A DNA stretch of 46,312 nucleotides from Tychonema litorale BBK16 (GTDB lineage: Bacteria > Cyanobacteriota > Cyanobacteriia > Cyanobacteriales > Microcoleaceae), in the NCBI RefSeq assembly GCF_021648855.1, contig NZ_JAKJHX010000032.1:1-46312 (forward strand), in the 5' to 3' direction. The notes under the pieces were generated by a model. It made no database searches and was not told the origin of the DNA. It worked only from the letters and a program-made list of their open reading frames with translations. The position numbers and the translations under genes were made by a program. Below, in pieces: positions 8,166 through 9,135 of the stretch (position 1 is the stretch's first letter; every line of letters starts with the position of its first letter).

Positions 8166-8228
8166 GCCCTATGCCCAATGCCCTATTCCCCATTCCCCAT
8201 TCCCTATTCCCCATTCCCTATTCCCCAG
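8166..8228. repeat. Heptamer tandem array (CCCATTC / CCCAATG type)
   Basis: About nine degenerate seven-base units of the ATTCCCC/AATGCCC type follow the kinase stop codon. It is an STRR-like array. The last units overlap the 3' end of the small ORF on the other strand. Confidence 0.8.
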
Positions 8229-8445
8229 GCCCCATATTAGTGACGACGTTATCTCTCCGAGAACACCCCGGATTCGGAGAAGTATCAGAACATAGTGATT
8301 CCCTACTACTATCTTTCGCTAATAACAATTGTTGAGATGTCGTGAACTTATTTTGCGAGATTAAACTTTTCTCTGGTTTTTGGGGAAAAGCAATGACGGC
8401 AGCTAATACTGTGCTTAATAATACGAATTGCGTCAGAGTAGACAT
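8218..8445 (-). CDS. Small exported protein of unknown function
   Basis: The 75-residue reading frame begins MSTLTQFVLLSTVLAAVIA, which looks like a signal peptide or single membrane anchor, followed by a short polar tail (KDSSRESLCSDTSPNPGCSRR). It lies directly downstream of the patX-like gene on the same strand, about 190 bases away. The tail KDSSRESL resembles ENSSKDSL just before the pentapeptide of its neighbour, so it could be a diverged relative. It has no RGSGR-type ending. The last codons run into a heptamer array. No clear ribosome binding site is visible. I do not recognise the family, and it may be non-coding. Confidence 0.45.
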   Translation of the reverse strand: MSTLTQFVLLSTVLAAVIAFPQKPEKSLISQNKFTTSQQLLLAKDSSRESLCSDTSPNPGCSRRDNVVTNMGPGE

Positions 8446-8500
8446 GGTGAGTTTTCGTTCAAAGTTGCTAATCCCAAATACGGACTTTTTTGGGTAAATC

Positions 8501-8516
8501 CGGAAGTAATTCCGGT
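8501..8516. repeat. Small palindrome CCGGAAGTAATTCCGG
   Basis: Six-base arms with a four-base loop lie in the gap upstream of the 8218-8445 ORF. It may be an operator. It contains TCCGGA at 8500-8505, but no function is claimed. Confidence 0.35.
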
Positions 8517-8634: not shown

Positions 8635-8850
8635 TTATCTTCCGCTTCCGCGTTCTGGCAAGCTATCTTTACTGCTATTTTCATCGCTATCTGCGTAAAA
8701 GCTCTGATTTTCGACTTGAACTGTTAGCGATTCAGTCACAGATTTGTCTTGAGATAAAAAGGTCGATCGCATTTCTAGACTTTGAGCGTTAACTGCGGTG
8801 GTGCTCAACAACAGGCTTGACATCAGGATAGAAGAGTAGAGACGTATCAT
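8635..8850 (-). CDS. patX: PatX-like secreted peptide precursor ending in ERGSGR
   Basis: The 71-residue ORF has a clear signal peptide (MIRLYSSILMSSLLLSTTAVNA, likely cut after VNA), a polar ~50-residue middle, and the C-terminal sequence PERGSGR followed by TAA. In heterocyst-forming Anabaena the RGSGR pentapeptide of PatS (C-terminus DERGSGR) binds HetR and blocks differentiation. PatX is a distinct exported precursor with a C-terminal RG[ST]GR motif found widely in filamentous cyanobacteria that carry hetR. The layout here (signal peptide, short body, terminal pentapeptide, HetR-like boxes upstream) is that of PatX. It has its own upstream region behind coaE. In a non-heterocystous species its job would be something other than heterocyst spacing (inference). 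Confidence 0.85.
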   Translation of the reverse strand: MIRLYSSILMSSLLLSTTAVNAQSLEMRSTFLSQDKSVTESLTVQVENQSFYADSDENSSKDSLPERGSGR

Positions 8851-8930
8851 AAAGTTTAGTGTTTTTAATTTCCACTTCTTGATACGCAGCCTGTGATCTG
8901 CTATCAGGGTAAAAAATAGAATTTTTGCAA

Positions 8931-8948
8931 AATTACCAGTTGGTAATT
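8931..8948. promoter_or_regulatory. Palindrome AATTACCA-GT-TGGTAATT upstream of patX-like gene
   Basis: Perfect eight-base arms lie about 80 bases upstream of the patX-like start, between the start and the HetR-like boxes. It could be a second operator. The binding protein is unknown. Confidence 0.4.
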
Positions 8949-8983
8949 GATCCTGTTTGCAAGGTTTCTATTTTTAGATATAG

Positions 8984-8995
8984 GGGGTTATACCC
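8984..8995 (-). promoter_or_regulatory. HetR-like binding site 1
   Basis: On the minus strand the sequence is GGGTATAACCCC, one base from the core GGGTCTAACCCC of the HetR site known upstream of Anabaena hetP. It is followed by CCTA and preceded by GAT. It lies 134 bases upstream of the patX-like start codon on the same strand. Confidence 0.7.
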
Positions 8996-9029
8996 ATCAT
9001 CTTTCTAAGGTTTCTATCTTCAGACATAG

Positions 9030-9041
9030 GGGGTTACACCC
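9030..9041 (-). promoter_or_regulatory. HetR-like binding site 2
   Basis: On the minus strand the sequence is GGGTGTAACCCC, again one base from the HetR core. It is 46 bases from site 1, about four to four and a half helical turns, which could allow cooperative binding by HetR dimers. Confidence 0.65.
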
Positions 9042-9135
9042 ATCATCAAGCTATGCTAATTGTAAATTTTTTGTAGTATTCATATTTAATTCATAATTTA
9101 ATGTTAGAAGCATCAGCTTCGTTAATTTAAAGTAG

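Follow-up and report, generated by a model that had tools for sequence, protein, structure and literature searches.

The question raised by this locus is whether a filamentous cyanobacterium, from a genus that is not known to form heterocysts, would keep a secreted inhibitor of HetR under the control of HetR itself. The window, by which the whole 46,312-nucleotide stretch of DNA under analysis is meant, carries on its minus strand, at 8635-8850, an open reading frame of 71 codons with an ATG start, here named patX-B, whose translation ends in LPERGSGR directly before the stop codon, exactly as the original prediction had it. The C-terminal ERGSGR (codons at 8638-8655, minus strand) contains the pentapeptide RG[S/T]GR that is typical of PatX, and the precursor scores 50.8 bits against the NCBIfam model of PatX, NF047413, for which the curated cut-off is 30; the assignment to PatX-like precursors of the RGSGR type is thus substantiated. 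Against the PatS model NF047415, the score is 10.5 bits (cut-off 30), which rules out that patX-B is a PatS. Residues 1-22 (8785-8850, minus strand) form a likely signal peptide; hydropathy peaks over residues 4-21, and the AxA-like cleavage point after AVNA was placed by eye and not with SignalP. A Pfam scan of the protein gave sub-threshold matches only, and PF28278 is seen as a precomputed label among its database homologs.

These homologs number 115 at E<=0.01. RG[ST]GR is found within 12 residues of the end in 88 of them; 23 of the other 27 read RGxGR, with x being E, D, Q, G, K or A, and the state of the upstream HetR-type box discussed below is known for these 27 only where they match analysed genomes. 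DNA comparison brought up three named relatives, an Oscillatoriales MAG, "Phorm 6", and Microcoleus sp. CAN_BIN18. The gene was matched at E<1e-12 in 26 of the 28 other genomes of the same genus, missing in G006 and G018, and it is present in all three genomes of genus g10; a lack of conservation in relatives, which would have spoken against the original prediction, is therefore not observed. At the patX-B locus a coaE match accompanies the gene in 24 of 27 same-genus cases and in one of three g10 cases.

A whole-genome search for DNA encoding ERG[ST]GR followed by a stop codon gave four matches, of which, by reading, only patX-B and an ORF of 59 amino acids spell the peptide. The latter (L004:43-222) is located in the same genome 1.3 kb upstream of hetR and scores 26.3 bits against NF047413, below the cut-off of 30. 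Nearest to hetR in this genome, 0.7 kb upstream, is a PatX copy with a degenerate motif (L004:621-842). Of the 29 same-genus genomes, 27 allowed such hetR-linked copies to be read, the sequences of G023 and G024 ending too near hetR. Among the 39 linked copies, 29 keep RG[ST]GR, 25 of them with a C-terminal extension and four ending at GR, and at least one intact copy is found in 26 of the 27 genomes; the 27th, G006, has an ERGSGR ORF of 25 amino acids that stands outside this count. The shortened hetR-linked PatX of G006, MQTYTPIALLTPQKGDLSPERGSGR (L127, around 2360-2457), is without the long signal stretch and has a PatS-like layout. Loss of RG[ST]GR is seen in 10 of the 39 copies. Comparison of the patX-B profile with the profile of the hetR-linked PatX copies (hhalign probability 96.2%, E 2.6e-9) indicates that the two kinds are related. 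Judged from its sequence, patX-B is a second, hetR-unlinked PatX paralog of this Microcoleus-like filamentous cyanobacterium.

Upstream of patX-B, a repeat finder located a direct tandem repeat with two copies, at 8950-8995 and 8996-9041, that are 83% identical. The pair of repeats with HetR-like boxes claimed originally is indeed there, with a repeat length of 46 bp in place of the 41 bp given. On the gene's own (minus) strand, the gene-proximal copy holds the HetR-type site GGGTATAACCC at 8985-8995, -145 from the ATG, and the gene-distal copy holds GGGTGTAACCC at 9031-9041, -191 from the ATG; the matches to the HetR core read GGGTATAACCCC (8984-8995) and GGGTGTAACCCC (9030-9041). At both places the GGGN5CCC arrangement is found that HetR requires (PMC4649674; PMC4192349). 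Like the HetR site of hetP, GAGGGGTCTAACCCCTC (PMC4192349), the window sites have a GGGN5CCC core, a GC-capped palindrome, and an A two bases before GGG; 14 of the 17 letters are shared by the GGGTATAACCC copy and likewise 14 of 17 by the GGGTGTAACCC copy, a sequence likeness by which they are candidate sites. An assembly artefact was rejected as the origin of the tandem repeat, the copies being just 83% identical. An intrinsic terminator was rejected as the reason for the boxes, the stem having 4 bp and the sequence lying upstream of the gene without a T run.

The exact pattern GGGTNTAACCCC occurs twice in the whole genome of 5,267,439 bases, both times upstream of patX-B, and the backwards-read pattern occurs once. 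Loose matches carry no meaning, since with up to two mismatches 10 sites in the window compare with 7.67 expected from shuffles, the exact ones being the two patX-B boxes. With one mismatch, 65 strand-matches in the genome stand against 70 for the control, so that the weight of GGGTNTAACCCC rests on its exactness, its duplication, its place, and its conservation. The 17-bp pattern GRKGGGTNNNACCCCYY gives six strand-matches at five places in the genome, two of them upstream of patX-B, and none for the control.

As to conservation, 20 of the 27 same-genus genomes have a GGGN5CCC between -106 and -158 of patX-B, and in 15 of these 20 it lies 87-91 bp from the -35-like element described below. The gene-proximal copy occupies this conserved place, and a single box is the usual condition within the genus; two boxes are found in the window genome only, among the 27 orthologs. 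One box-less genome of the genus has GGGN5CCC at -478. The three g10 genomes have no box at the usual place and yet keep ERGSGR, one of them having GGGN5CCC at -181. That a chance ORF would have met chance repeats, for which the ordinary frequency of the one-mismatch core might be cited, has a negligible probability in view of the 115 homologs, a PatX model score above the cut-off, and a site that 20 of 27 genomes have in the same position; such conservation across related genomes rules it out. Within up to 2.6 kb before hetR, no GGGN5CCC is present in this genome, and it is present in nine of 29 same-genus rows, eight of the 29 being shorter than 2.6 kb and those of G023 and G024 nearly empty. 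In three of the nine (G005, G022, G006) a linked patX copy follows it at a distance of 156-191 bp. These sites are sporadic; in the 29 rows, neither hetR nor the linked patX copies showed a conserved GGGN5CCC.

Between box and core promoter, a second palindrome, ATTACC-N4-GGTAAT at 8932-8947 of the window, is partly conserved in the alignment. In five genomes, namely, at L164, L200, L212, L213, and L216 among 32 loci examined, an extended HetR-type palindrome with variable centre (site near 1501) is flanked by a glycosyltransferase-like gene on one side and a protein-kinase-like gene on the other (gene names by eye); it is possibly a further HetR target.

The core promoter of patX-B would consist of a DIF1-like -35 element, CCTGAT (8903-8908, minus strand), and a -10-like element, GTATCA (8880-8885, minus strand). 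CCTGAT or CCGGA[AT] followed by GTATCA is found in 30 of 30 patX-B loci; the 39 same-genus hetR-linked PatX copies all have TCC[TCG]GA and, after it, GTATC. The exact DIF1 motif TCCGGA is absent from the -35 position of patX-B, where CCTGAT stands instead, preceded by C (ACCCTGAT). The predicted core promoter is common to patX-B and the linked copies, and it resembles the DIF1 promoter (TCCGGA) described for Anabaena patX (PMC7377430). Being DIF1-like and shared in this way, it implies that HetR need not be the sole activator of patX-B. The original view that the parts of a HetR-PatX circuit are visible at this locus thus stands with regard to PatX, the GGGN5CCC sites, and hetR; it needs amendment in that patX-B is not the only RGSGR precursor of the genome and has its type of core promoter in common with the linked copies.

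From the same promoter data it could be argued that patX-B is a real PatX gene controlled by its DIF1-like core promoter, with GGGN5CCC being the site of another regulator or a minor modulator. The occurrence of that promoter in every patX-B locus and every same-genus linked copy would agree with this, as would the report that Anabaena hetR is driven by a DIF1 motif and not by its HetR site, patX having a DIF1 promoter as well (PMC7377430). In addition, the extended motif GAKGGGTNNNACCCCYT is found elsewhere in the genus (66 strand-matches across 29 same-genus genomes versus six for the backwards-read pattern, which is a crude control for a palindrome), in some cases before genes without a known tie to HetR. 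Control by the core promoter with such a subordinate box is nevertheless rather unlikely, for the site fits the HetR requirement exactly, and the box goes with constraint on the hexapeptide, though the core promoter is retained in all seven box-less genomes.

The constraint becomes visible when the 27 same-genus patX-B loci are divided by their boxes. RG[S/T]GR is kept in all 20 box-bearing loci; among the seven box-less loci, the S/T position is lost in five and RG[ST]GR is kept in two. The 20 box-bearing genomes have a pN/pS of 0.02 over the final six codons, and the seven box-less genomes one of 0.73; the corresponding values are 0.27 and 0.32 for the signal part and 0.70 and 0.64 for the middle part, all of them calculated from pooled pairs, which are not independent. 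The seven box-less genomes form one group on the hetR tree (support 77/88, not starred), and the box was lost once on that tree. Five of seven hexapeptide changes fall into this clade, which makes up 14% of the tree length (binomial p 0.001, with Fitch counts treated as independent, hence a guide only). These data suggest that the HetR-type box and the RG[S/T]GR peptide are kept or lost together; statistically, the apparent link between operator and peptide is weak, because a single box loss provides one independent contrast.

A hetR gene, the absence of which would have been fatal to the circuit originally proposed, is present once in the genome (L004:1339-2241), with a single PF03574 match of 257 bits and 576.9 bits against NF009718 (cut-off 489). 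Twelve HetR positions were checked, these being the ones named in PMC4649674 for contact with DNA or PatS6 or for response to PatS. Eleven of the 12 are retained (R62, H69, E71, K73, R74, K76, R223, E253, D256, D270, D278). Position 254 in Anabaena numbering has Thr instead of Glu in 29 of 29 same-genus genomes; Glu254 is found in all 10 readable HetR sequences outside the genus, the G057 stretch having yielded no hetR by script. In the Anabaena HetR structure residue 254 holds the N-terminus of PatS6, and the E254A exchange raises the Kd for PatS6 from 12 to 91 nM while still allowing release of DNA (PMC4649674). In the same structure, the peptide serine is bonded to Glu253, and an acidic residue at the serine position should therefore hurt HetR binding. 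Arg223 is close to the free C-terminal carboxylate of PatS6 (PMC4649674); such a carboxylate would be offered directly by patX-B without trimming, as the protein ends at ERGSGR. For nifH, no match above the cut-off was obtained in this genome, which is scored 99.92% complete, the best TIGR01287 match having 221.5 bits (cut-off 394.35). Nitrogen-fixing heterocysts are therefore unlikely, and the earlier suggestion that the circuit would control something other than heterocysts is favoured.

From these findings, patX-B is probably a HetR-activated, secreted inhibitor of HetR, so that an activator-inhibitor loop would be formed. Acting at the box, active HetR would promote transcription of patX-B in addition to the DIF1-like core promoter, and with the second box HetR occupancy may be higher or the response steeper. 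The precursor would be exported and then cut, as by PatP in Nostoc, to ERGSGR, with no C-terminal trimming being needed; ERGSGR would reach neighbouring cells and take HetR off the DNA. For Nostoc, it has been reported that PatX is exported, that PatP cleaves it, and that its hexapeptide inhibits HetR (PMC12756182). Without heterocysts, the loop would space another cell fate, for which necridia and filament breakage are a published conjecture (PMC7761841; PMC12756182).

Counting for the HetR-activated loop are the NF047413 score, the conserved box, the constraint shared by box and hexapeptide, the retained HetR contact residues, and Arg223. Counting against it are the single box loss, the two of seven box-less loci that keep RG[ST]GR, the box-less g10 genomes that keep ERGSGR, and Thr254. 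To these are added the DIF1 promoter described in place of a HetR site at Anabaena patX and the dispensability of the HetR site at Anabaena hetR for hetR upregulation (PMC7377430), as well as the transcriptomes of Leptolyngbya BL0902, from which the authors judged PatX effects to be basically independent of HetR (PMC11298460). The opposite sign, with HetR repressing patX-B via the boxes and the peptide being made at low HetR, is very improbable. The position of the boxes, far upstream of the core promoter, leaves the sign unsettled; for simple repression, however, a site 87-91 bp ahead of the -35-like element is unusual. HetR has been reported as a repressor of several promoters in vegetative cells, yet in Anabaena both patX and patS increase with HetR activity (PMC7761841).

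In comparison with known systems, patX-B shares with PatX of Anabaena/Nostoc PCC 7120 (NF047413; PMC7761841, PMC12756182) the small precursor, the signal peptide, RG[S/T]GR, a coexisting HetR, and a DIF1-like element. Anabaena patX differs in having HRGTGR (PMC12756182) and in being described with a DIF1 promoter in place of HetR-recognition sites (PMC7377430), whereas patX-B combines a C-terminal ERGSGR with conserved HetR-type sites, and the window genome has further PatX copies upstream of hetR. With PatS of Anabaena PCC 7120 (NF047415) patX-B has the C-terminal ERGSGR in common, but Anabaena PatS has 17 amino acids (PMC12756182) and patX-B has 71 with a likely signal peptide. Leptolyngbya BL0902 is likewise a heterocyst-less filament with PatX, HetR, and a predicted DIF1 promoter; its patX directly precedes hetR, with which it is believed to be cotranscribed (PMC11298460), so that the counterpart here would be the hetR-linked copies and not patX-B.

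Next to patX-B, at 8218-8445 of the minus strand, orf75 encodes a candidate diverged PatX relative of 75 amino acids ending in SPNPGCSRRD.... It has a hydrophobic, secreted-looking start (by eye) and a conserved CxxxSPxPGCSRRD-like end. The exact DIF1 motif TCCGGA is located upstream (8499-8504, minus strand), with GTATTT 17 nt further, at 8476-8481. A search of 79 genomes gave orf75 matches with E<=2.1e-4 in three of three g10 genomes and in 10 genomes of the same genus, the present one counted; database matches comprise eight proteins. Five of 10 upstream stretches have exact TCCGGA (G000, G025, G009, G007, G015), G042 has CCCGGA, and four others are without it. Against hetR-linked PatX, the orf75 profile reaches a score of 30.6 (probability 74%, E 2.7e-5). 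None of 200 column shuffles scored as high (best 23.4), 100 of them having been made with the first 26 columns left in place; against patX-B the match is weak (7.8%). With moderate confidence, this profile comparison and the homologs point to orf75 as a diverged PatX relative.

A broader reading, which we regard as tentative and rather doubtful, is that the PatX family in Microcoleus has diversified into several secreted peptide signals, comprising patX-B, the box-less RGxGR variants, and orf75, as a small peptide code of heterocyst-less filaments. patX-B would keep ERGSGR under a HetR operator. Many members of the operator-less clade would have moved to RG[E/D/Q/G/K/A]GR, a form without the Glu253-contacting serine; this peptide may address another receptor, R-G-x-G-R, signal peptide, and promoter being retained. 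The protein encoded by orf75, with its exact DIF1 motif and with PxPGCSRRD, including a cysteine, replacing RGSGR, may be a new intercellular signal.

PatX was reportedly introduced by Elhai and Khudyakov in 2018. The HetR-PatX pair in heterocyst-less filaments is already published, and the Microcoleus patX-B proteins are already named PatX in databases, many as "heterocyst-inhibiting protein PatX". In the literature covered, to which Elhai and Khudyakov 2018 does not belong, no mention was found of the HetR-type operator of an unlinked paralog, its duplication, the joint decay, or orf75; nor was a paper found on PatX with Microcoleus, on RGDGR with RGSGR, or on PGCSRRD with heterocyst. What would be new is patX-B as a hetR-unlinked paralog with a putative HetR-type operator, duplicated here. 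The role of HetR and PatX in heterocyst-less filaments has been called a mystery (PMC11298460), and very little is said to be known of HetR targets in these organisms (PMC4192349). The patX-B locus is a likely direct HetR target in a heterocyst-less organism, and it would encode the inhibitor of HetR itself; the operator and inhibitor motif that appear to decay together provide a natural experiment, and the locus points to the individual bases and residues that could be altered.
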